The position numbers and the translations under genes were made by a program. The notes beneath the pieces are model-generated. The model did not search any database and was not told the origin of the DNA. It saw only the letters and a list, made by a program, of their open reading frames with translations. From assembly GCA_002803225.1 (NCBI GenBank), contig NXFV01001323.1, forward strand, positions 1 through 64,000: DNA of 64,000 nt, in the 5' to 3' direction. Source of the stretch: Gamarada debralockiae. Lineage: Eukaryota > Ascomycota > Leotiomycetes > Helotiales > Hyphodiscaceae. Positions 15,166-55,827 of the stretch are shown piece by piece (position 1 is the stretch's first letter; every line of letters starts with the position of its first letter).

Positions 15166-17300
15166 ATGTGGTCCAGCGCATTGTTAAGTCTGCTCGCTCT
15201 CGGGGTCGAAGTGGCTTATGGCCAAGTTGCGGGATATGGCCAATGTAAGAGCGCATTGTATTTTTTGTAGGCGTGCTTTCTGACTCGAATGAGGTGGTGG
15301 ACAGGGTTACACTGGAGCGACGACCTGTGCCTCGGGATACTATTGCTTGTACAGCAACGCTTGTGAGTCTCCCCCTCATTTTCTATGACGAGATGCTAAA
15401 CCCATTAGATTATTCCCAATGTGTTCCAGGTACGGCAAGTTCGAGTGCCATAAGCAAAGCAACTTCAATTGCAACCACGCTATCCACCAAAACTAGCAGC
15501 ACGTTACAATCTTCCTCGACATCAAAGACCTCGTCAAGCTCAGCCTCCGCGTCTGCATCTTCTTGTCCTGGTTATTTCACTCCAGTCACCGCGTCCGCTG
15601 CATTCGCCGCTCTGAATCCAGGATGGAATTTAGGAAACACACTTGATGCCACTCCAACGGAAGGATCATGGAATAATGCTCCAGTAGTACCTGCCACATT
15701 TGCAGAAATTCAAGCAAGAGGTTTTAAGAGCGTCAGAATCCCAGGTGTGTTGTATCCCAAGCTCTGAGAGCGTCCTTTAATGAATTGCAGTGACATGGGC
15801 GTACCATTTCATCAATGCATCTCCAACCTGGAATGTCAATACAACGTGGATGGATCGCGTTGAGACAGTTGTTGACGAGGCGCTGGCCCTTGGATTGTGG
15901 GTCGTTGTGAATGTTCATCATGATTCCTGGATCTGGGCTGATCCAACTGCTTCCGGAGCCAACCTCACCATGATCAACGAGAAATTCGGTCGTCTTTGGG
16001 CTCAGATTGGAACCCGATTTGCGTGCAAGTCTTCCAAATTGATATTTGAACCCCTCAATGAACCCGTGGGATCAACGCAATCGGATGCGCAGTTTCTCAA
16101 CAATCTTACCGCGATTTTCTTGCAAGAGATCAATCAAGCTGGCGGATACAACCCCCAAAGAGTTGTTTCACTCAGTGGACTCGGTATGGACAGTATCAAG
16201 ACGAGTGAATGGTTTGTACGACCGACTGTCTACCCTAATCAACCTTGGGGGATGCAATTCCACTATTACTCTCCATACGACTTCATCTTTGACGCATGGG
16301 GAAAGACGATCTGGGGATCTGACGCTGATAAAGCTTCCCTTTTGAACGACTTCACTCTTTTTAACGGCAACTTCACGGACGTTCCAGCTTTTGTAGGAGA
16401 ATGGGACTCGTCTACAACAAACAATGAGAAAGCAGCGCGATGGAAGTACATCGACTATTTCATTCGTACAGCAAACTCGTTCGAATACTCAACAATCATG
16501 TGGGATAATGGCCTTGACCAATTCAATCGAACGTCAGATACCTGGTACGATCCGATCGACGAGGATATCCTATTTGCAGCAGTAGCCGGAACCACCAACT
16601 CCTTGGCAGACAGCACCACCGACCCCCTCGCTACAAGCCAAAACTCCAGCGCATATATCTTCCACAAAGTCGGAGATCCAGTCGTCGCACAATCAGTGCC
16701 ATACCTCTTGAATGGCAATACCCTGAAATCAATCAAGAACTCCGCCGGACAAACCCTCACCAACTCTCAATACAGCATGTCTAACGGCTCCCTGACACTC
16801 TCCGCCGCCTACCTCAGCACGCTCTACACCTCCACGTCCGCAGCAGGAATCAAAGACACGCTCACATTAACCTTCAGCGCCGGCACACCCTTGACGCTAA
16901 CAATCGTGCAATACACCACGCCCATCATACCCACCACATCCTACGTCGTAGATCCCAGCGCCGACCTCTACATCCCCGTGACGTATCAAGGCATCCCGGA
17001 GATTGCGGCTGTGACGGCGTATAATGCTGATGGAACGTATTTTATTGATTCTTGGACAGAGTATTTGGGTCCACTCCAGCAGGCGAGATGGACATACGGG
17101 GATTGGGGGTGGGATGATGAACATTTTATTGTTTATGAGTCCGGGTTGACGCTAATTCAGGCTGCGGCTCAGACTGTTACGTTGACCGTTGAGGTTAGTG
17201 ATCTTTCTAGCGATGGAGGAGGAGTGTGCTAATGGTGTGATAATAGTTCTTCCCGAGAAGTGTTGGGCAGAATTCTGTCAATGTTACGTTCACGCAGTAA
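15166..17300 (+). CDS. CBM1-GH5 endoglucanase with X2/Ig-like and CBM46-like C-terminus
   Basis: This is a secreted beta-glucanase (cellulose or mixed-linkage glucan/xyloglucan). Five exons (15166-15244, 15294-15362, 15409-15744, 15791-17193, 17247-17300) encode 646 residues. After the signal peptide the first two introns interrupt a cellulose-binding CBM1: YGQCGGQGYTGATTCASG, then YYCLYSNAYYSQCVPG. A Ser/Thr linker leads to the GH5 barrel (NPGWNLGNTLD, VRIPVTWAYHF, NVHHDSWIW). The acid/base is Glu252 in FEPLNEP and the nucleophile is Glu365 in FVGEWDSS. After residue 450 an X2-type Ig-like module (YLLNGNTLKSIKNSAGQTLT) and a module resembling CBM46 follow. X2 plus CBM46 after the barrel suggests subfamily GH5_4; this needs a profile search. 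The last exon supplies VEFFPRSVGQNSVNVTFTQ. Confidence 0.93.
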
Positions 17301-32352: not shown

Positions 32353-35300
32353 TTATATAAGCTTTAAACCTTCCTTAAATTTAAGAATAGAAATTCTCCC
32401 TGATAAGTGTCCTAGAATAATAACTCTATTCCAAACAGCTATACAACTTGGTCGATAATTAAGAGGCAACCAGAGAATATTTATACCCCCTTCTACTATC
32501 CAGTTATTTGACACAAGCAGAGTATGCAAAAGCTTGCCATCTGCCGAGAAGGCCGTTGAAGTAACGTGGTTCGAGTAGCCTTCAAGCGTCTGCAGCGCTA
32601 CTCCTGTGACGGCGTCCAACAGCTGCACTGTGCCGTCTAACGACCCGGACACGACCTGCTTGCCGTCCGGCGAGAAGGCTACTGAGTTGACCCCGCTCGA
32701 GTGGCCCTTGAGCATCTGCAGCTCCGCTCCCGTTACGGCGTCCCAGAGCCGGACCCTCCAGTCTGACCCGGACACGACCCGCTTGCCGTCCGACGAGAAG
32801 GCTACTGAGGTAACCCAACCCGAGCGGCCCTTAAGCGTCTGTAGCTCTGCTCCTGTGGCAATGTCCCAGAGCCGCACCGTCCTATCATTAGAACCGGACA
32901 CGACCTGCTTGCCATCCGGCGAGAACGCTACTGAGTTGACTCTGCTCAAGTGGCCCTTAAGCGTTTGTAGCACTGCTCCCGTAGCAATGTCCCAGAGCTG
33001 TACTATACTCTCTTCGGAACCAGACACGACCTGCGTACTGTCTGGTGAGAAGGCCACTGAGGTAATCCTGCTTGACTGGCCCTGAAGTGTCTGTAGCTCT
33101 GCTCCCATGGCAATGTCCCAGAGCCGTACAGTGCTGTCTCTAGAACAGGACACGACCTGCTTGCCATCCGGCGAGAAGGCTAGTGAGGTAACCCCGCTCC
33201 ACGGGCCCTCAAGTGTCTGTAGCGGCGCTCCTATAGCAACGTCCCAGAGCTGTACCGTGCTATCATCAGAACCGGACACGACCTGCTTGCCATTTGGCGA
33301 GAAGGCTACTGATCTAACCCCGCTCGAGTGGCCTTCGAGCGTTTGTAGCTCTGCTCCCGTTACGGCGTCCCAGAGCCGGACCCACCAGTCCGACCCGGCC
33401 ACGACCTGCTTGCCGTCCGGCGAGAAGGCTACTGAGTTGGCCCCGCTCGAGTGGCCGTTGAGCATCTGCAGCTCCGCTCCCGTTACAGCGTCCCAGAGCT
33501 GGACCCTCCAGTCTGACCCGGACACGACCCGCTTGCCGTCCGGCGAGAAGGCTACTGAGGTAACCCAACCCGAGCGGCCCTTAAGCGTCTGCAGCTCCGC
33601 TCCCGTAGCAACGTCCCAGAGCCGCACTATGTCGAAAGAACCGGACACGACCTGCTTGCCGTCCGGCGAAAAGGCTAGTGAGGTGACGTCGTCTGAGTGG
33701 CCCTTGAGTATCTGTAGTGGCGCTCCCGTAGCAACGTCCCAGAGCTGTACTGTGCTATCTCTGGAACCGGACACGACCTGCTTGCCATCCGGCGAGAAGG
33801 CTACTGAGTTGGCCCTACTCGAGTGGCCCTGAAGCGTTTGTAGCGGCGCTCCCGTAGCAACGTCCCAGAGCCGTACAGTGCTATCTCTGGAACCGGACAC
33901 GACCTGCTTGCCATCCGGCGAGAAAGCTACTGAGTTGACCCTACTCGAGTGGCCCTTAAGCGTTTGTAGCGGTACTCCTGTGGCAGCGTCCCAGAGCCGC
34001 ACTGTCGTATCATTAGAACAGGACACGACCTGCTTGCAGTCCGGCGAGAAGGCTACTAAGTTAACCTTACTCGAATGGCCCTCGAGTATCTGTAGCGGCG
34101 CTCCTGTGATGGCATCCCAGAGCCGTACGGTGCTATCGCTAGAACCGGAAACGACCTGCTTACTGTCTGGCGAGAAGGCCACTGAGCTGACCAAGGCCGA
34201 GTGGCCCTCAAGCGACTGCAGCGCACTATTCCAGTTTGCTTGTACTTTCGGTTTCGTATAAATCCAAGGTGGGATACACTTCTCAAACTGCTTCCGAATA
34301 ATACTCGTCTTTGGCGTAAAGACAAGGGCGGAACAGTATAGTTGTAAGGGCGCCTGTTCAACTATTGACCGATTGGATAGGGCGAATCGCTTCGCATCAT
34401 AGATAAGCGCGTTAAGATTAGGACTTTTCCCGGCCTTAGTATAGATTAGTCAATGTTACTTCGTATAAATATCCCCCTAAAAGAGCTTACGAGACATAGA
34501 GCCTCTACAGAGAGGATTGCAAGAATCCCTTCTGAAATCTTCCCCATCCAGCTAAGAGCCTCAAGCCAGTGAAGGAGATGTACTTGAAGGAACCGATGGG
34601 TTTGGCCGTTGTCATAAAGCTGAGTATCACTCTTCTGGAGATGATGAATCCAGTAGAGACATGCGTATTCAACCTCTGGAGGAAGACATTGCTCTATTCG
34701 ACTTCTCTCTACATTAGCCACAACAGTACCAGGAGCCTCTTGTCTGCAAACGTCTTGCTTAAGAGAGTTCGACATAAGCCGGATGCAGTCATCGGCTAAT
34801 GTTCGATGGGCTTGCCTCTCGTCCACCCAGAAGTGTAAATCGCTGCATCTATTTTTGTCGAGAAGAAAGTCGCGGAATGAAGGGTGGTATAGACGGAGGC
34901 GGCGGGCTTGATCCTTTGGGATATCTAAGATAGAATGAAGATCTTCTAGCGTTTGGATAACGTCCTGTTTAGGTGTATGCAGTAGGGTGGCAAGAGCGTT
35001 AACAGAAAGGGGAGAGGACAAGATGATAATACTTCCAAGAATCTCTCTTAGTGTATTATACAAATCTTCCTTCTCTTGTTCAGTATAGTAGTGGTGAATA
35101 GAGTTCTCGAGGACAGTAAGATAGATCTTATTAAGGTGATTTTCCGGTGCAGCAACAGACTTGTCGCCTTGCAGCATCATATCTAGTCGTCTTAGAACAA
35201 ATCGTCTGCCTTCGCGAATAAAGCGACATGCAGTTGCGGCCCATAGAAATAGGCCACTAGCCTTCTGGACTAATAGGCTGATGACCAGCTCATCCGGCCA

Positions 35301-36217
35301 GCCAGCTCCAAGACTCCGTTCCCGTCCAATCGATCTCAATTCATACTCTAGGAAAATAAAAATATCATGGTCCACAATGGCCGCATCTATGTCATGGAGG
35401 ATGAAGTCGCGGTGGTCAGTATTAGGAATCTGGCAGAAACCGTTTCGGATTGGAACCTCTGGTCTGCTTGTGATCAGCACTCGCAGCCGGACCTCCTTGA
35501 GCGATCGAGCTTCAGCCAACAGTTGTAGAATGATCCCTATGTCGTTTTCACCTTCGCATTCATCCAAGGCATCTATAATCACAATGTATGATGGGTATGT
35601 GTCTTTCCCCTCCAGCTTTAAAAGCGGCCGAACCACGAGCTGGTGCCACTGATCTATAAGGGTCTGGCTTGCGATGATGCTATGCTCCGTGATAGCGTTA
35701 CAAATATACTGCTGAACTGGCGGAACGTACACCGCTAGTTGTAAAGCAATAGTAGTGACAAACTTGCGAGCATTGCCGGCATCACCACCGCCTCGCGAGA
35801 AGAAGAAGCTGGCTGCAAGCCGGCCTTGCTCGAAGTAGGCGCGCGCGACCGTGTGTGCAATCGTCGACTTCCCTGTGCCGGCCATACCGCTCAACCAGAA
35901 AAGGTATTGCTGATCTTCGCTATCCGCCCATTGTGATATCTTTTGTAGGACGTCGACTCGTGTATTAGGGAGGCAAGTAGGTTCGTGTTGGCGAGCGTAC
36001 GAATTAAAGGGCGCATTTGGTGCGACCGGTAGAAGGCTAAGCGGGTTTTCTCGACCTATAGACTATTTAGTCTTTCGTGATATTCCTCTCGAGCATTTAG
36101 AGGGAACTGACTGAAGTTGTATGTATCTCCAAGGTGGGCTTTTCCGCTGACTTGAACGTGCTGGTATTGATGGCCGGTGGAGGATAAACGCCGGCCTGGC
36201 TGCATCGGATCTGACAT
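32353..36217 (-). CDS. NLR: amyloid-like motif, NACHT, WD40 repeats (NWD2/HET-E type)
   Basis: This is a STAND sensor of fungal innate/incompatibility type. Three exons (36217-36112, 36055-34491, 34434-32353) with two 56-bp introns encode 1250 residues. Exon 1 (MSDPMQPGRRLSST...) ends with a HET-s-like motif, GHQYQHVQVSGKAHLGDTYN, at residues 15-34. Exon 2 begins ENPLSLLPVAPNAPFNSYAR and carries the NACHT domain: CLPNTRVDVLQ, Walker A GMAGTGKST (Lys98), Walker B YIVIIDALDECE (196-201) and LITSRPE. Exon 3 gives SPNLNALIYDAKRF and then 13 near-identical 42-residue WD40 repeats plus a degenerate fourteenth (from about 634). Such proteins oligomerise on ligand binding and template amyloid folding of a HeLo partner to trigger cell death. 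The decayed HeLo gene lies 249 bp away, head to head. The first intron is inferred (donor GTCAGT); without it the motif is out of frame. Confidence 0.87.
32560..34200 (-). repeat. Array of 13 near-identical 126-bp WD40-coding units
   Basis: Each unit encodes 41-42 residues of the form VNSVAFSPDGKQVVSGS, STVRLWD, ATGAPLQTLKGHSS. Units differ mainly at a few positions around the GS-D-STV and WD-ATGA-LQ segments, and units 5-7 and 11-12 share shorter variants (GSDWRVRLWD). High identity at DNA level is typical of repeats shuffled by concerted evolution. The open frame on the opposite strand across the array is a by-product of the repetition. Confidence 0.92.
36113..36175 (-). other. HET-s-related amyloid motif (HRAM-like) in NLR exon 1
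   Basis: Residues 15-35 of the NLR. The core VSGKAHLGDTYN has the alternating small/polar pattern and the G-K-A-x-x-G-D-x-Y spacing known for HET-s amyloid motifs, placed at the N-terminus of the NLR exactly as in the NWD2 sensor. Identified by eye; needs a profile match. Confidence 0.7.
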
Positions 36218-36466
36218 TGGCAAACGCGCTTGCTAGCGGTGCCGCAGGGGTGGAGAGATACACAGACTGGAACCGCGATCAAGTGGAGTGCTATGTTTCG
36301 TCAGGATAGTGCTGGTACGATCTACAGTAGGGGGTTGATGATTCTGCGGGGTGGGAGTACTGATTCTGCCTAGACCGTGCACGGTGTTTCGTTTGGCAGT
36401 ATCGACTGCTTCCCCCATAGTGTTCCACTACCTCTATCCTATCTCGCACAATTCATTACCCTGAAA
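36218..36466. promoter_or_regulatory. Head-to-head intergenic region, NLR / HeLo
   Basis: 249 bp separate the two start codons, so a shared bidirectional promoter is likely. No specific sites were recognised. Confidence 0.5.
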
Positions 36467-36990
36467 ATGGCAGAGCCTTTTGGAATTGCTGCCGGTGCTA
36501 TTGGCATCGCTGCAGCATTCACCGCTTATGTCGATTGCTTCGAGTATATCAATTTGGCCGCCACTTCGGTTGAGATTTCCAAACTGATCAGCTGGCTTAG
36601 GGCTGCGTGAGACTCCGTCTTAATGATCCGAGACTCAGCAGACCCGATGCTACTGCAACTGAGATCTAAGTTGCAAATGATACATTGCTCCAAATCCTAG
36701 TGCTATTCGCCAACACTGAATGCATCTCGAAAAAGTATAGATTCGCTACGAAAGCTGACGAGGATCTCTCTACGTTTTCGACGGGCAACATGGCTCCAAC
36801 GCTGATTGCGCTTGATAATAAGATAAAAGCCCTAGCTATCCACCGTCAAAAGGTTCGCCGGTTCTTAAAGCTTACTAGCTGGGCTCTTTACCATAGGTCG
36901 GAGTTCAAAATTCGCGCTGTTCTTGCTGTTCCTTCTAATTTTTCTACTGTAATGAGGCTCTATCTACCTGTGCCGCTCGCTATTGTGGCT
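36467..36990 (+). pseudogene. HeLo-domain gene, decayed
   Basis: The start MAEPFGIAAGAIGIAAAF followed by YVDCFEYINL is a clear HeLo N-terminus, the pore-forming domain of HET-S-type effectors. After INL a one-base frameshift moves the match (GRHFG-DFQTD, RLRL, DPRLSRPDATATEI, VANDTLLQILVLFANTECIS, KKYRF, KALAIHRQKV, FLKLTSWALYHRSEFK) to another frame. That match is interrupted by TGA, TAG and TAA where relatives would carry CGA, CAG and CAA. These are C-to-T type changes. The match fades after SEFK, and I found no amyloid motif downstream. No functional pore-forming protein is expected from this copy. Confidence 0.82.
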
Positions 36991-37322
36991 TAGCCAGCAC
37001 GTGATAAATTATGAGCTGGAGTATGCAGGGATAGTAAGCTAGCGTCTTGGCAGTGTGGCTTGGTTTAAATTTCTCGAAGTGTTCAAGGCGGAAGCCGATT
37101 TCGCTAGCGACTGTACTGGGAAACCGATCCGCAAGTTTCGTCCAATGGCTGGGTTTGTGTTCTAGCCAGATGCAGCAATTCCGGCCTGCGGTGTCCCGAC
37201 TAGTCCGAATGTTCTTGAGCTTACGAATCCATCTTGCAGTCAAATCGGTTTTACAGCAACTATCAACTTGGAGTTTTTTATTTTTACCCCTGCTTGATTT
37301 CAAGCTTCACTCAACGAATCTG
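36991..37322. other. Intergenic, possible tail of the HeLo relic
   Basis: No recognisable coding sequence. A HET-s-type motif was looked for here and not found. Confidence 0.4.
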
Positions 37323-40460: not shown

Positions 40461-42872
40461 TCAATCCTCCATATCCTCATCCTCATCTTCCCCATCGTCG
40501 TCACTAAAGCTCTCGTCGTCGTCATCGCTATCATCATAAGCACGTTCCCTACTTCCTTCCTTCTACGCACAAAAAAAAATCAGATGGGGGAATTGAAGCC
40601 TGATGGGAAGCGAGGAAAGCCAGGAGGAGGTGCAAACCCAGGGGGAGCTCGAGGGAAACTTACAGGTCCATTCCCACCATCCGTGTTCTGTAATTCTGGC
40701 AAATCGTAAATTGCTGCAGGCAACTCAACCTGATTTGGCGCAGTTATGATACCAAATTCGTTGATCCCATTGAATCCTCGTCCCCAATCGCTTCGTCCAT
40801 AGAAACCGATGATTTTCTGGTCTGCGGCTGGTTCAAGAACTCGAGCACTCTTTGGGTTGTACAGATGGCCGCCGGAAGTACCATTTGACAAGTGGAATCG
40901 GAGCCCGTTCAACTCGTGGTCGCCTGTCAGCTCCACTTTGGTGACATCGACGCCTTCAGAAATGATGATCTTCTGAGAGGCGTGACCACCGAAGTTGTGA
41001 TCTTGACCATCTGGTCTCCAGCGAGGCCCGCAAGGTGTAGTATGTCCGTCTTCGAAGTAAACAACGCCACCGTCGAGAAGGCAGCCGACACGAGAATCGA
41101 TTGTGGTTGCGCGTGTCAATTTGCCATCCTCGCCCTTTTCATTCAGCAAAACTGCCCAGTCCCAGTTATTCTTGTTTACATCTCCATCTTTGGCCTCCTG
41201 CAGCCTCTTGCACATCACAGATTTCTTTTGCAGAACGATTGAAGAGCCAGGAATCCTGATGAAGGAAACGTTGGAGAACAGCCTCCACACGTTGCCCACA
41301 ACACGTGACTTTCCATTCATTCCCAGCACATCGAGTGTCAGTGGTTTGTTGCGATCGAAACGTGCCTCAAGCTCATCCATGGTAAACTGCAATTTCATAG
41401 TCGGCTCCGCAACGGTGGGCTGAATTTCTGCGGTACCATCGAACTTGACACGGGCAATGCCAGCGGGGCAGCTAATGGCAAGTCTGAGGAACTCCTCGTT
41501 CTGCTCTTCAAAGACAATTTGGATGCTGGGCTCGGCGGCAAGAATCTCGGGTCGCTGCGCATCATCGGTTGGCAGCCAGAAGTGGCGTAAGGTCTTGAAA
41601 GATAACGCATCACTGAGATCCCATCGAGCATCGTTCTCAGTCTCGCCATCAACGACCATGATACCCTCCGTTTTGGTTTGTGCACAGTATGCTGTTCGAG
41701 ACAGAAAGTTCTTTGGCCAATGCTGAGAGTATCCTCGAGCCATGATTCCTGTAGTATGTGGTGCACCGAATGCATGGCCGACTTCATGCAAGAACGCGCC
41801 CTGGCCTACAGAACAAGCTTCCCATGCAGTCTCGCATTCTCCATTGTCATTCCCAACGGTATCTCCAGGGACTGACGTGTCGAGAAGTGTAGAGGCAACC
41901 TCTTCGAGGAATCGTGGCCAGCTGTAGGTCAAATGGCTGCCGAATATACCCAATGAAATCCCATTTGGATTGGAACAACCGAGAGCAGCATGGCCAAGGA
42001 TCATATTTTGCTCAGGGGAGAACGTCGAGTCGAGAATGAGACCAGCGACCACTGGGTGGGCAGAGGAAGCGAAAGGACCACCATGAGCCTTCAGAGAAGA
42101 GTTGAAGTAATTGAAGATGGCGTCCTTTCTGCGAGCCTGTGGATTTTGTTGGGCCACCTGAGCGTCACGAAGCTCGGCAACAGTGTTTTCCGAGCGGATG
42201 AGATGTACCTTGGCAGTAGATCGCATGTGACTACCAGATGATTCAAATGAGGCTTGAAGGAACTCTCGGCTCAATGTCTCTGTCGTCCATTCCTCTTCCA
42301 GGCGGAAAGAGCGGCGGCCAAGCCCTTTGGCGCGCATGTCCTCTGCCGTAAGGGCCTGCCACATGTAGGCGGTCATCCTGAACTTTCTGATAGCCGCATC
42401 CAAGTCCGAGTGTGCGGAAGAGATAGCTCCTCGCTTAAAAGGGGGGCAATCGATGAGGAGAGGGGAGTCCTTGGCGATCATGATGGCGAGGTGGAGTGGC
42501 GGGGTTTGTAAAAGAGGGATGTAGGTTAGAGTCAAGGACGTGGTCGCAGTGGCAAGGTCATTATGTCGAAAAAGTATGGCATTGGTACCAGGAGAGAGGA
42601 TCACCAGTGCTTTGAATCGTCCACCTGAGATTGGCCAATTTTGAGCGGGAAAAGACGTCAGGTTGGCGGCATCTGCGGTGTGAACGGCAACAAAATCTTC
42701 GGGATTTGTGGACGGGCATTGACCAATCAAGAGTACGCCGCGCTATAAGACATGTTAGCAACTGAATTGAATTTATGAAGGGGGAGAGGGAACGTACCTG
42801 ATAAACAGTCTCTCCGTCTGAGATGTTTTCCAATGTCACGGTGGACGACTTTGCCGGCTGAGCAGGGAACAT
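40461..42872 (-). CDS. Zinc metalloprotease with jacalin-like lectin domain and acidic tail (YIL108W-like)
   Basis: Three exons (42872-42798, 42742-40664, 40562-40461) encode 751 residues. The zinc site is HEVGHAFGAPH (His344 onward), the HExxHxxGxxH pattern of metzincin-like proteases. N-terminal sandwich sequence (FPAQNWPISGGRFKALVILS) and a C-terminal jacalin-like region (DHNFGGHASQKIIISEGVDV, YGRSDWGRGFNGINEFGII) match the fungal family of putative zinc metalloproteases that includes yeast YIL108W. No signal peptide is present, so it is probably cytosolic. The last intron (GTAAGT to TAG) attaches a very acidic tail (YDDSDDDDESFSDDDGEDED). If the intron is retained, translation ends instead at 40580 with a Pro/Gly/Phe-rich tail. 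Substrate unknown. Confidence 0.88.
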
Positions 42873-47262: not shown

Positions 47263-50200
47263 TTATGTAGGTGTTGGAGCTGAGGCTCCAGTAATTCCGC
47301 TTTGACCTTCAGCTTCGTCGACGGGATCGACGGGGCCGCAGGTGCAGAAGAGGTTCATGTCTCCGTAGGCTAGAAAGGTAATTAGTATGCGATATGAAGG
47401 GAAGTAGGGAAGGTGTAAGGAATGGGATACACACCATCATCCAATCTCGTAACACTCGGCCAGAACTTCTTCTCCTTCAACCAGGCCAACGGATACGCAG
47501 CCTTCTCTCTCGAATAACTTCTATCCCACTCACCCACCAACAAATCCTTCATCGAATGCGGCGCCATCTTCAAGACGTTGTCGTCTCTAGGCTCCTTCCC
47601 GTCCTCAACAGCCTTAATCTCCTTCCGAATCTCAATCAAAGCATCGATAAATCGATCCAGCTCCTCCTTACTCTCCGACTCCGTGGGTTCAATCATCAGA
47701 GTATTGGCGACCGGCCAAGACATGGTTGGGGCATGGAACCCGTAGTCTTGGAGACGCTTCGCAACGTCAATGGCTTCGATGCCGGCGGTCTCTTTGAATC
47801 CACGCACGTCGAGGATGAATTCGTGTGCACAGCGGGATGCGGAGTTGGTGTAGAGGATGGGGTAGTGGGGACGCAGACGCGACATGATGTAGTTAGCGTT
47901 CAGAAGAGTTATTTTTGTGGCGTGAGTAAGACCGCGGCCGCCCATCATCTTGATGTAAGCCCAAGAAATGGGAAGGATACTTGCGCTTCCCCAGGGAGCA
48001 CCGCTGACGGGTGCAATGCCCTTCTCGCCACCGGTCGCGATCAAGGGATGACCAGGGAGGAAAGGAGCGAGGTGAGACTTGACACCGATAGGACCCACAC
48101 CTGGTCCACCGCCACCATGAGGGATGCAGAAGGTCTTATGGAGGTTAAGATGGCATACATCAGCACCAATCTCGCCAGGCGAGCACAGTCCGATTTGAGC
48201 ATTCATGTTAGCGCCATCCATGTAAACTTGTCCACCATGTTGATGGACGACATCACAAACGGCCTTGATCTCAGGCTCAAAGACACCGAAAGTGCTGGGG
48301 TAGGTGATCATGATCGCGCCAAGCTCCTCGCTGTATTTCTCACACTTTTGCTTCAGATCCGCCATGTCGAGATTGCCAGTCTTGGTGTCGCACTTAACAG
48401 TAACGACACGCATACCGGCCATCGCAGCAGAAGCTGGATTGGTTCCATGAGCAGACACCGGAATTAAGCAGATGTCGCGCTTTTTGCCTGGCTGTTGCTC
48501 CTGGTACTTTCGAATGACGCGAAGACCCGTAAATTCGCCTTGAGCTCCCGAGTTCGGTTGCAGAGAAACTGCGTCGAATCCGGTAATCTTAGCCAGATCC
48601 GCCTCCAACTCATCGATCATAACCTTGTAGCCAGTTGCTTGGTCCACAGGTGCGAATGGATGAATGGACGAAAACTCTGGCCATGTGACTGGAGCCATTT
48701 CAGTGGTAGCGTTGAGCTTCATAGTACAAGATCCCAGGGGAATCATGGAATGGGTGAGAGAGAGATCCTTCGATTGAAGGTGGTGAATATAACGGAGGAG
48801 TTCAGTCTCCGAGTGATGGGAATTGAAGACCGGGTGAGTGAGGTACTCGGAGGTTCTCTTGAATGGCGTTGGAACGGGGATTGTACCATCGGTATGAAGG
48901 GATTGAATAATGTCATTAAGTTCGATATCTTTCTTGGACCCAGAGAAGTCCTTGAATATTGAGAGAATTTCTTCAAGGTCTTTCGCGTCAACAGTCTCAT
49001 CGATTGTTATTCCAAGTCTGCTCTCGTCGAATCGTCTCAAATTGATCTTGTAGGTCTTCATTGCGTGGGCGAGAATCTCGTCAGATTTTCCTTGTCCAAC
49101 GTTGACCACAACGGTATCGAAGAGAACTCTGCCATCCGCGCCCTTACCTCGAGTCCCAGTTTCGAATCCGAGGGTCTTGAGACCTTGCTCGAGAATTCTG
49201 GCGCCGCGAATAGCTCGTTCTGCAATATTCTTGAGTCCTTGTGGGCCGTGGTAAATCGCATAGAAAGCACTCATATTCGCCAAAAGAGCTTGAGCTGTGC
49301 AGACATTGCTGGTAGCCTTCTCGCGTCGAATGTGTTGTTCTCTGGTCTGCAATGCCAATCTCATCGCTCTGTCTCCCAATCTGTCCTTCGAAACTCCGAT
49401 CAAACGTCCTGGAATTTTGCGCTTGTATTTGTCGCTAACAGCGAAGAAAGCAGCATGAGGTCCTCCATATCCAAATGGTACTCCAAATCGTTGAGCATTT
49501 CCAAAAGCAATATCGGCACCAAATTCGCCAGGTGGTGTGAGAACAGTCAAAGCCAAGAGATCCGTAGCCACGCTGAAAGTTGCACCTTGCTCATGGATAA
49601 TGTCCGCCAGGCCTTTGAAATCCTCGATTCCTCCCTCTGTATCAGGATATTGAACCAGGACTCCAATCAAATCCTTGTTAAGGTCTTTGACGCGCTTTCC
49701 TCCATCCGCCATGACATCTCCAACTTCAATCTTGATATTGAATCCATCTGCTCGACTTTGGAGAACCGCTTGGGTTTGTGGGTGGACGAGGTGACTGACG
49801 AAGAACGTCTTGTTCTTGCTCTTCTGTCTAGAAGCAGGGAGAACATTCATAGACAAAGTCATAGCTTCAGCAGCAGCCGTAGATTCATCAAGCAGCGAAG
49901 CATTGGAAATTGGCAAAGACGTTAAGTCACTGACTAAAGTCTGGAAGTTTAACAGCGATTCCAATCGCCCTTGGCTGATCTCCGGTTGGTATGGGGTATA
50001 ACTGGTGTACCATCCTGGTCCTTCCAATACATTTCTTTTAATGACCTCTGGCACACGTGTCCCAGCATATCCACACCCAATATAACTTCGCATAATGGTG
50101 TTCTTCGAGGCAATGGTCTTGAGTCTGGCCAACAATTGTGATTCTGTGTATCCCTCCCCTCCAGGTCTGGCTTCGATCTCGAGATCCTTGGATGATAGGA

Positions 50201-50558
50201 TGTCGCTCGGCAGAACTTGCTCGACGAATTCGTCCAGACTCTTGACAGGAGGATCCAATGCCTTGAGCATTTGCTCTGTGGAATCTGCTGAGAGGCCAAC
50301 GTGGCGACGTGCGAAGGTATCGAGAGGGAGGTATGTGCCCCGTGAGTCTGCGGTGGTAGGTGAACTGTCCAATTCATCTTTGGCAGAGCTATAGTAGAAT
50401 GTTCTTCGTGAAATTGCCTGGAAACCCAAACCCGAGCGCGTACATTGGCGGCAGGTCCATGGTCGCGTGAGATGGGAAGCTCCGTTTGTTGCAGAAGGTC
50501 TCGATTGACTAGCTAGTCTTCCTAATTGTGCGCGAAGCACAAGGCTTGAAGTCGCCAT
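47263..50558 (-). CDS. GCV2: Glycine dehydrogenase (decarboxylating), mitochondrial P-protein
   Basis: P-protein of the mitochondrial glycine cleavage system: it decarboxylates glycine with pyridoxal phosphate and passes the aminomethyl group to lipoyl H-protein. Two exons (50558-47435, 47369-47263; 65-bp intron) encode 1076 residues, the expected size. The N-terminus is Arg/Ser-rich without acids, a mitochondrial presequence (MATSSLVLRAQLGRLASQSR). Landmarks are YIGCGYAGTRVPEVIKRNVL, SMIPLGSCTMKLNATTEM, GSASILPISW and the cofactor lysine Lys808 in NLHKTFCIPHGGGGPGVGP. The short last exon restores the conserved end AYGDMNLFCTCGPVD. It is conserved and intact. A long antisense open frame (47394-48467) is a shadow. 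Confidence 0.97.
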
Positions 50559-51037
50559 TGTGTTGGGTAGAAAGAGCTTGAAGCTCGAAGCTCGAAGCTC
50601 GAGGTAAAAGTCGGTGAGGCGAGAGTATAAAGGAGTCAGGAGAGCTTGGATAGAGGGGTCGGGAGGTTTAGGAATAAACGTAAACTCATTTGCCCCTCAT
50701 CCTTGGCCGGGTAAGATAGATGTGAATATGGACGTATTTTGTCAATCCAGAGCTCAATTCGTATGTAGAGTCTGGGCTTAATATTGTCTCAAAATTTCCA
50801 ATTGTACTCGTCTTTGTTGATTGCGAAATGGGCTTATCAAAAAAGTTCGATGATTGCTCTCTCGTTGATTTCAAGAAAAATACGCGCTAACGGACCGAAA
50901 ATAGCCGGTAGCGTGACAGGGGTCGGTTATCATCGCTCTATTAAAATTTCCAGTATGGGTGTCACAAGCAAACCAAACCACATCCTGCACTCGAATCCGA
51001 TCTCAACTTCTCCCTCTCACAACTTCACGTCGCAAAC
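50559..51037. promoter_or_regulatory. Divergent promoter region, GCV2 / TOM5
   Basis: 479 bp between the starts of two divergently transcribed genes for mitochondrial proteins. A direct repeat of AGCTCGAAGCTCGA lies at about 50578-50600, in the GCV2 leader. Confidence 0.55.
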
Positions 51038-53181: not shown

Positions 53182-55827
53182 ATGCAGCTAACATCGGTCC
53201 AAAAGACTTTCGTTTTGTCCCTTGCATTTTCCTTGGTGAGAATCTCCAGTCCAAGCTGCCACGAGCGACGCTGATCTTGGAAGTTCAACCTTTCGGAGGG
53301 TGTCACTATTCACAATAGACAAGACCTTCCTCAACCATTGAATCCTCCTGACTTCGATGGCTGGGGTTATATGGGCTGCTGGTCGTAAGTTATTCAAACT
53401 CGGCAGTAAACAATGCTAACGATTATGAAATAGAGACAGCCAGTCCTCACGCACCCTTGCAGTTGCCGCTCATTTTGGAGAACATGTCGACGATGACAAT
53501 TGCGTCTATCAGTGCATCCAGCTTGGATATATTTTTGCTGGTGTTGAATATAGCGGACAATGGTTTGCTCTAATCCTTCACCTCTTTTGAACAATTGCTG
53601 ACTTCGGAATTTTTCACAGCTGTGAGTTATCAGATCAATGCTGTTCACATCGGTGCTGACACTTACCAACAGACTGCGGAGACTACGTTAATCCCATTGC
53701 CACGCAGGAGCCTGAAACCGACTGTTATATGCCTTGCACCAAGACACCCACGGAAGCATGCGGTGGTCCCAATAGGATGAACCTCTATTATCTCAAGGGT
53801 GCAACTCCTGGAACTCCCCCTGTCACTGTTTCCACTAACCCTGGACCCGATGGCTGGGTCTCTGAGGGCTGCTATTCTGATTCTGTCGGTGCTCGTACTC
53901 TTGCCAATGAAGTGGCCACAACGGGTGGCGGTTCTGCTATGACCGTTGCGCTTTGCGTCGAGGCTTGCCAGGCTGCAGGATATTCCCTTGCCGGAGTGGA
54001 GTACGCAGATCAATGCTGTAAGTCATCTCACAGCTCTTGTCCATGCCTATATTGATATTTCCCAGACTGTGACAACACCTATGTCAACGGTGGCCCGTAT
54101 CCAGACCTGTCCCATTGCAATATGGCCTGCAGTGGCAACGCATCCGAATACTGCGGTGGACCAGGTGCTTTAAACCTCTACTCCTACCATGGGGCTACAC
54201 CTGTGTCTTCGGTAATCGTTACCAGTACCCCAACACCTGTGACGAACATCCCGCTGCCGTCGGCTTGGGCTACACTCGGCTGCTATACTGACAACGTTGG
54301 CGCTCGCGGCCTATCAAATAAACTCAACATCCCTTCTCTGACCATAGAGAAATGCATCAGCGGCTGTGCCAATGCGGGTTACACAATTGCAGGCGTCGAA
54401 TATGGAGATGAATGGGAAGTAATTCTCAGAGCAATCTATTTCATAGTCTATCTGAATCGTTGAATTTTAGTCAGAGATTCTACTTAGAAGATGTTGTAGT
54501 TCAACTCTTATGCCATTCGCCTTATTCTTCTTCCACCTCTATTGAGCCTTTACTAACTCTAATATTCTTACAGCTACTGTGATGACGCCATACGGAATAA
54601 CCAAGGTCAAGCACCAGACGGATCTACAGAGTGCAATATGGGCTGTAGTGGAAACGAAGGCGAGACCTGTGGCGGACCAAATAGATTGGATGTTTATGCT
54701 GCTGGTCCCGCGTGGGTCTATCTCGGCTGTTACACTGACCAGCCGTATGAACGTACTTTGACTACTGTAGGCACCTACAGCGGCTTACTGACCGTCGAGA
54801 GCTGCCTTGCCAGCTGCCAGGCTGCTGGCTTTGTGTATGCGGGCATGGAGTATCATGATGAGTGCCATTGCGGTAATGCCTTTTCGAACGGCGGTGGTCC
54901 AGCTCCAGATGGAAATGTGGGGTGCACGTGGACCTGCGATGGCAACACTACTGAGATCTGTGGCGGCAGCTCGAGGCTCTCGGTGTACGAGTATATCAAT
55001 GCCGCTGGCGTTGTAGCTTCATCTCCGTCCTCGTCTTCTAGTTCTCCTTCCAGCACCACTACTTCACCGCCGTCTTCCAGCACTACGACATCGACCTCCA
55101 CGCCAACTTCCTCTTCACCAGCTCCGGCTGACCTCCCTTCAGGCTGGTCCTACAGTGGTTGTTGGGTTGACAATACTGCCGGTCGAATTCTAGCCAACAA
55201 GCAACCCGACTCCGCAACAAACACAATTGAAGGGTGCATTGCGACCTGCGCTGGAATGAACATGTCTATCGCCGGCCTCGAGTACAGTTCTCAATGCTTC
55301 TGCGACAATTTCATCGAGAACGGCGGCGTGCTCTCCTCGGCTGACTCAAACTGCGCCATGAAATGTTCTGGCAACTCTGCTGAAATTTGTGGTGGCCCTG
55401 GCCTGCTGAGCGTGTACTCTTCGTCACCTCCGCAAGCCGCACCGGTTGCGACGATCAAGAAGACTGGGCTGCCTGACACTTGGGCCTACAAGGGTTGTTA
55501 CTCTGATGAAATTGGGAATCGGGATACTGGCGCCAATGGCGTCGAGATCGATTCAGCCACTCTTATGACGGCTGAATACTGTCTTGGGCAGTGCTCTTCT
55601 TTAGGATTTGATGCAGGAGGAACTGAGTATAGCAGTCAATGCTGTGAGTGAACTCCCACCCCGATACTGTATGGAAACTGATTTTCATAGTCTGTGGGAG
55701 CAGCACCGACTTCGCGGCGGCTGATCCAACGCTTCTCAGTGATTCGCAGTGCAATATGGTCTGCACTGGTGATGACACAGAGCTTTGTGGAGGGGCTGGG
55801 GCTATGGCATATTATACACTTCAGTGA
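53182..55827 (+). CDS. Secreted protein with six WSC domains
   Basis: Exons 53182-53235, 53299-53384, 53434-53562, 53620-53621, 53673-54017, 54066-54414, 54574-55643 and 55691-55827 give 723 residues. After the signal peptide (MQLTSVQKTFVLSLAFSLG) come six WSC (cysteine-rich, putative carbohydrate-binding) domains. They begin at WGYMGCWS, WVSEGCYS, WATLGCYT, WVYLGCYT, WSYSGCWV and WAYKGCYS, and each has a CGGP/CGGS-NRL-type end. A Ser/Thr/Pro linker separates domains 4 and 5. No transmembrane segment or anchor follows, so it is a free cell-wall or extracellular lectin-like protein, not a Wsc stress sensor. Two oddities: a 2-nt exon completes domain 1 (EYSGQ|C|YCGDYV), and the intron after domain 3's first half has GG instead of GT at its donor (54415). 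If that intron fails, translation stops after domain 3 has begun. Confidence 0.85.
53563..53672 (+). other. Two introns separated by a 2-nt micro-exon
   Basis: Intron a (53563-53619, GTTTGC to CACAG) and intron b (53622-53672, GTGAGT to AACAG) each have a CTGAC branch site. The exon between them is just CT. Using it gives GGA CAA TG-C-T-AC TGC, the conserved QCYC of the WSC domain. Skipping it gives TGA immediately. Confidence 0.75.

Follow-up and report, generated by a model that had tools for sequence, protein, structure and literature searches.

What does a cell-death sensor gene do once the executor gene facing it has been lost? The question is raised by two divergent genes on contig NXFV01001323.1 of the fungus Gamarada debralockiae (Leotiomycetes, Helotiales; assembly GCA_002803225.1), of which positions 1 to 64,000 of the forward strand were analysed (hereafter the window, i.e., this whole stretch of 64,000 nucleotides). 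An earlier note, made from the sequence alone, had described a nucleotide-binding oligomerisation domain-like receptor (NLR) with a HET-s-type amyloid motif facing a HeLo-domain pseudogene, and had offered two accounts of the intact sensor: it might work with an unlinked HeLo protein, or the locus might be an inactivated incompatibility allele. We read the locus as a head-to-head pair of the NWD2/HET-S type with a dead executor, and consider it probable that the intact sensor signals to a HeLo protein encoded elsewhere, since the adjacent HeLo gene is broken while intact matching HeLo genes lie at other loci.

The sensor gene and its amyloid motif

The NLR gene lies on the minus strand. Its first exon (36112..36217; 35 codons plus one nucleotide) encodes an N-terminal extension bearing the amyloid motif, the second (34491..36055), which is without stops, encodes the NACHT domain and the region following it, and the third (32353..34434) encodes the WD40 part and the C-terminus. 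Splicing the three exons over two 56-bp GT-AG introns, intron 1 at 36056..36111 (GTCAGT..ATAG) and intron 2 at 34435..34490 (GTAAGC..TGACTAAT..CTAAG), yields a single frame of 1250 residues plus a stop codon, which reproduces the gene model of the earlier note, and its layout of NACHT followed by WD40 held as well. The NACHT core (residues 74-233; 35463..35942) matches the Pfam family NPHP3_N (PF24883; E 1.6e-30), and the WD40 array (32470..34221) consists of 14 repeats of 41-42 residues, the last one degenerate. The Pfam NACHT model itself scores 26.0 bits on the protein, slightly below its cut-off of 26.7, and the core contains GMAGTGKST and IVIIDALDE, which we take to be the Walker A and Walker B motifs. 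At the DNA level the WD40 part is a 126-bp tandem array of 12.6 copies with 79% matches; mutually similar WD repeats inside one gene are typical for fungal NLRs according to a portion of PMC4986451.

The motif in exon 1, termed r0 here, is a single HET-s-related amyloid motif (HRAM) of short-arch form, like the first repeat (r1) of HeLo proteins. The earlier note had placed VSGKAHLGDTYN at residues 23-34, a position that is correct; the complete motif, GHQY..V.V.G.A.LGD.Y, is wider and spans residues 15-33 (36119..36175, minus strand). To score it, we used profiles of 101 distinct first repeats (r1) and 99 distinct second repeats (r2), all taken from HeLo proteins only; a pattern search had found r1 in 121 of 122 HeLo proteins and r2 in 110 of 122, and 5 of the 121 r1 repeats have a longer, r2-like length. 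Exon 1 reached 28.1 bits on this independent r1 profile, a score that none of 20,000 shuffles attained (17,062 of them gave a score, the best being 13.2 bits), and the second-best segment of the window reached 6.6 bits. Judged by its sequence, the exon-1 motif is thus clearly an HRAM of the r1 kind, far above random as the note's proposal implied, with an arch two residues shorter than that of most paralogs.

A protein search with the NLR returned 3082 relatives, and the N-termini of the best 120 of these were examined. Eighteen N-termini, chosen from those 120 for their likeness to that of the window, were aligned, and they pass from the motif, degenerate only in P0033, straight into the exon-2 start (S)xE(N/D)PLSLLP (e.g., P0002 and P0021). 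Exon 1 is accepted as real on the strength of these annotated relatives, in which an equivalent motif is followed by an equivalent beginning of exon 2. The splice 36112^36055 is also supported by comparison with the r0 exons checked in the genome, since a GT stands at the identical codon position in 9 of 11, the window's included, the two exceptions being one on contig C101, which has GC, and one on contig C469, which is out of register.

Most of the other N-termini among the best 120 of the 3082 relatives are different (e.g., HET-domain-like) or cut short, so that the motif-bearing form represents one among several N-termini used with this NACHT domain. The same diversity, together with the donor GTCAGT of intron 1, a weaker form than GTAAGT, might be taken to mean that exon 1 lies outside the transcript or resembles the motif fortuitously, and that the gene encodes a NACHT-WD40 protein without amyloid signalling. 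Against this stand the distance between the profile score and the best shuffle, the annotated relatives with the same joined exon and the conserved GT, and we regard such a protein as very improbable; chance as the source of the motif is ruled out by the profile score and the shuffles. As a separate observation, P0001 carries a NACHT domain 72% identical to that of the window behind a long N-terminus opening with a zinc-finger-like segment, and there are Pfam matches to ankyrin; these are the same nucleotide-binding oligomerisation domain with other ends.

A dead HeLo gene beside an undecayed sensor

Across a shared intergenic region of 249 bp between the divergent start codons (36218..36466), a HeLo pseudogene of the HET-S type runs on the plus strand from an ATG at 36467 to about 36909, so that the distance and orientation given by the earlier note are confirmed. 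The Pfam model HeLo (PF14479) matches it in two pieces in different frames, with E 2e-4 (just below the curated cut-off) and E 3.5e-7 (above it), and a genome-wide search with the HeLo family (54.3 Mb in 1112 contigs), which gave 18 HeLo matches, recovered the relic too (E 5.5e-8, with three stops). Over 36550-36981 the relic is 60% identical to the intact HeLo gene H9 on contig C345 of the same genome. By Pfam and by this identity it falls in the HET-S HeLo family and not in an unrelated one. Its lesions comprise a 1-bp deletion causing a frameshift near 36549, a 30-bp in-frame deletion and three in-frame stops, and HeLo homology is lost beyond about 36909, so that the C-terminal part that would hold the amyloid repeats is gone; profile scans and tblastn found no r1- or r2-like repeat downstream. 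The executor is therefore a pseudogene, as the note had stated, and has lost its amyloid-repeat region in addition.

Just past the end of HeLo homology lies a dispersed repeat fragment (37017..37129) with 37 further matches in the genome, and its closeness suggests that the end of the relic may have been lost through an insertion or a deletion. Some of the 37 matches share a contig with further NLR or HeLo loci (C422, C801, C544, C41 and C101).

At 307 sites that are identical in three relatives, the relic shows 23 specific changes. Repeat-induced point mutation (RIP) is not supported as the cause of the relic: 12 of the 23 are C>T or G>A, against 55 of the 61 scored HeLo changes on contig C87, a RIP-mutated relative of the NLR/HeLo pair on contig C45, and the dinucleotide indices of the relic are like those of intact genes, unlike those of C87. 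The pattern on C87 is a sign of a past RIP-like process in this genome. Rescue of the HeLo gene by an intron was rejected, by inspection only, since such an intron would take out core helices, the intact paralogs have a single continuous frame across the region and the repeats are absent. At the DNA level the relic is closest to the HeLo locus on C41 (371 of 443 positions), followed by those on C345 (343 of 443) and C45 (339 of 443).

The sensor has fared differently. There is no disabling change in its 3753 bp of open frame, which agrees with the earlier description of it as intact. When neutral decay of the NLR was simulated at the divergence of the relic, a mean of 12.8 stops accumulated and the minimum in 1000 runs was 2; when four lesions were spread randomly by length over the relic and the NLR together, all four fell in the relic with P = 1.2e-4. 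Compared with the NACHT exon of the paralog on contig C644, nonsynonymous divergence (dN) is 0.25 and synonymous divergence (dS) is 1.3.

These numbers bear on the second account offered by the earlier note, namely that the locus is polymorphic, that the sequenced strain carries a HeLo-null haplotype, and that the NLR, functionless here, owes its intactness solely to how recently the HeLo gene was broken. Such haplotypes have a counterpart in Podospora, where het-s strains carry a pseudogene of nwd2 (a section of PMC4344463); moreover, the comparison rests on one genome, and the divergence of the relic may partly predate its break. However, the relic has gathered several lesions besides its 23 specific changes, and at this divergence about 13 stops would be expected in a neutrally evolving NLR, whereas the window's NLR contains none, for which reason we consider a recently inactivated allele unlikely.

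Candidate executors and sensors elsewhere in the genome

HeLo genes with the same motif, which the earlier note had proposed looking for, are present in the genome. The surroundings of the HeLo matches outside the window were scanned for the motif, and the repeat region of the HeLo protein H10 matches five loci (C45, C345, C41, C87 and C244). Two of these are intact and encode double repeats. On C45, the H10 gene itself and an r0-bearing NLR gene are transcribed divergently, and the contig ends within the WD part of this NLR. On C345, H9 (minus strand) encodes 295 residues, with a 15-residue tandem duplication in the loop that separates the two amyloid repeats. No NLR was found near it in 9.4 kb, but upstream of its ATG the contig extends for only about 1.3 kb. 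The HeLo gene on C41 has one frameshift, with no NLR found in 9.5 kb, and that on C244 is decayed.

H10 resembles the known HET-S proteins in sequence and predicted fold. Its sequence matches the HET-S HeLo structure 2wvo (E 5e-52), and its modelled fold matches the same structure (Foldseek E 7e-15; template modelling score 0.89 by target length). Its family profile, built from 42 relatives, gives a match to the HET-s amyloid core 2kj3 that covers r2 and the tail (E 0.0049), and in the best AlphaFold2 model, with a mean predicted local distance difference test (pLDDT) score of 78, both r1 and r2 are predicted to contain three short strands.

The sensor side of the genome is larger. The r0 searches covered the whole genome, only the best candidates were scored, and the counts are lower bounds: r0 exons occur at no fewer than 12 loci, i.e., at least in the window and on C45, C87, C235, C979, C101, C977, C24, C469, C786, C264 and C644, the last being weak. 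At 4 of the 12 (the window, C45, C87 and C235), the r0 locus has a head-to-head neighbour that is either a HeLo gene or the relic of one. Upstream of the other 8, no HeLo gene was found in 1.4-2.9 kb and none of the 18 HeLo matches lies on those contigs; of one set of 13 NACHT loci, this upstream inspection covered 5. Several NLRs at r0 loci carry stops, and the NACHT match list holds no match for C101 and C469. The motifs differ in their preference, those on C235, C979, C101 and C264 scoring better on the r2 profile and those on C786 and C24 on the r1 profile, with C45 about equal on both. On C644, a remnant of a second r0-bearing NLR start lies upstream of the NLR with the open NACHT exon.

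The intactness of the NLR and the fact that r0 loci outnumber intact executors favour the first option of the earlier note, that of an unlinked executor. By analogy with NWD2, the WD40 part would bind a ligand and the NACHT domain would then oligomerise; the oligomerised NLR would gather its r0 motifs into a beta-solenoid seed, on which the r1-r2 repeats at the C-terminus of a HeLo protein would be templated, and the templated HeLo protein would open the membrane and kill the cell. The adjacent relic can no longer serve in this way, and the executor would most likely be the HeLo protein encoded on C345 (H9) or on C45 (H10), both with matching repeats.

The target need not be a HeLo protein, and r0 might signal instead to another NLR or to another type of effector domain that bears a matching motif at its C-terminus; in other fungi, PNP_UDP effectors also end in single HRAM-like motifs, as described in part of PMC9815663. 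However, two r0 queries run genome-wide with E values up to 10 gave 10 matches each, every one of which was either an r0-like exon or the C-terminus of a HeLo gene, and no other effector with an r0-like motif was seen at that sensitivity. We therefore regard a non-HeLo target as improbable.

Several points weigh against an unlinked HeLo executor nonetheless. The window's r0 is weak on the r2 profile (8.0 bits, equalled by 4 of 20,000 shuffles), and seeding between motif subfamilies can fail, as noted in a part of PMC7889193. Of the two intact candidates, the C45 HeLo gene already has a paired NLR of its own, and the C345 HeLo gene, which lies about 1.3 kb from a contig end, may have one beyond that end. 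In a tree, the nodes around the relic have supports of 0.19, 0.53 and 0.14, too low to place it beside C345 or C45. The AlphaFold2 prediction of H10 has low confidence in its repeat region (block means 42-71), the mean pLDDT of the other four models runs from 70 to 54, and no amyloid core structure is among the best 50 of 346 Foldseek matches. Finally, the decay simulation takes all relic-specific changes as later than inactivation, and any that predate it would weaken the test. With these points weighed, signalling to an unlinked HeLo protein is still the reading that we consider most likely.

Known systems and the meaning of the locus

The reference for this organisation is the NWD2/HET-S system of Podospora anserina (HRAM1), described in parts of PMC3321046 and PMC4344463, in which the two genes are likewise divergent neighbours, the NLR combines one N-terminal HET-s-type motif with NACHT and WD40, and the partner belongs to the HeLo family. 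The likeness drawn by the earlier note is therefore borne out for the motif, the NACHT-WD40 architecture and the adjacent HeLo-family gene; among the testable features of NWD2/HET-S, only an intact HeLo partner in cis with two amyloid repeats is missing. The damage is reversed between the two systems, the executor being broken and the sensor intact in the window, whereas the het-s strains of Podospora have nwd2 as the pseudogene. In a passage of PMC4344463, the authors argue that a sensor lacking its executor becomes useless; that the window's sensor, unlike nwd2, is still intact points to another executor.

The motif also differs from that of NWD2/HET-S: position 3 is H instead of N, and the second arch is shorter by two residues than in the 21-residue form. 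H at position 3 is a mark of HRAM3 (a portion of PMC4518210), with which the present system further shares a conserved G19, hydrophobic residues at positions 5, 8, 10, 16 and 18, and an arrangement of two C-terminal repeats in the HeLo protein and one motif in the NLR. We tentatively assign the motif to HRAM3, by eye and from position 3 and the pattern only, with a two-residue gap needed in the second arch. The present system departs from HRAM3 in that the r0 of the window's NLR is r1-like, with the paralogs on C235, C979 and C101 better on r2.

Pairs of this kind are widespread, as indicated by at least seven pairs of HeLo and NLR relatives with consecutive locus tags in six other genomes (e.g., VE00_11147/VE00_11146, B7494_g7218/g7219, MMC25_003189/003188 and M1840_007144/007143); r0 is present in the annotated N-terminus of the NLR in 6 of the 7.

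Ordinary neighbours in the window include a GH5 cellulase with CBM_X2 (15784-17229, plus strand), a putative metallopeptidase (40583-42742, minus strand), a glycine dehydrogenase (47385-50696, minus strand) and a WSC-domain protein (54563-55648, plus strand). The conserved glycine dehydrogenase is up to 96% identical to other sequences and, among the named species listed, closest to that of Amorphotheca resinae (88%), which on the basis of this one gene makes a leotiomycete source probable. Directly behind the HeLo relic, a Zn(II)2Cys6 transcription factor gene may begin at 37322 on the plus strand, with a Pfam Zn_clus match below the cut-off (E 0.03) and an apparent intron within the cluster.

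We found no published account of this locus in the open-licence literature. It adds a member to a known system, and signalling between non-adjacent NLR and effector genes has been proposed before (parts of PMC9815663, section 27, and PMC7889193), in settings that resemble this genome in that NLR-side motifs exceed effector-side ones and the partners are unlinked. As far as the relevant parts of those papers go, the proposals rest on motif co-occurrence, whereas the decayed cis partner and the intact sensor described here provide an independent, evolutionary argument.

It is conceivable, although we hold this only tentatively, that NLR and HeLo genes in this fungus have become uncoupled into a network in which at least 12 r0 loci, the majority with no HeLo neighbour found, share two surviving HeLo executors. 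If so, the window would show how a network of this sort comes about, its sensor staying intact and functional once the linked executor had decayed, and r1-type and r2-type r0 sensors may each bind a different rung of one executor. Descriptions of amyloid-signalling NLRs usually present them as members of two-gene pairs. An intact sensor next to a dead executor, with matching executors elsewhere in the genome, makes this locus a natural test case for the sharing of amyloid signals between unlinked genes, and the r0, r1 and r2 sequences make such sharing testable through seeding assays.

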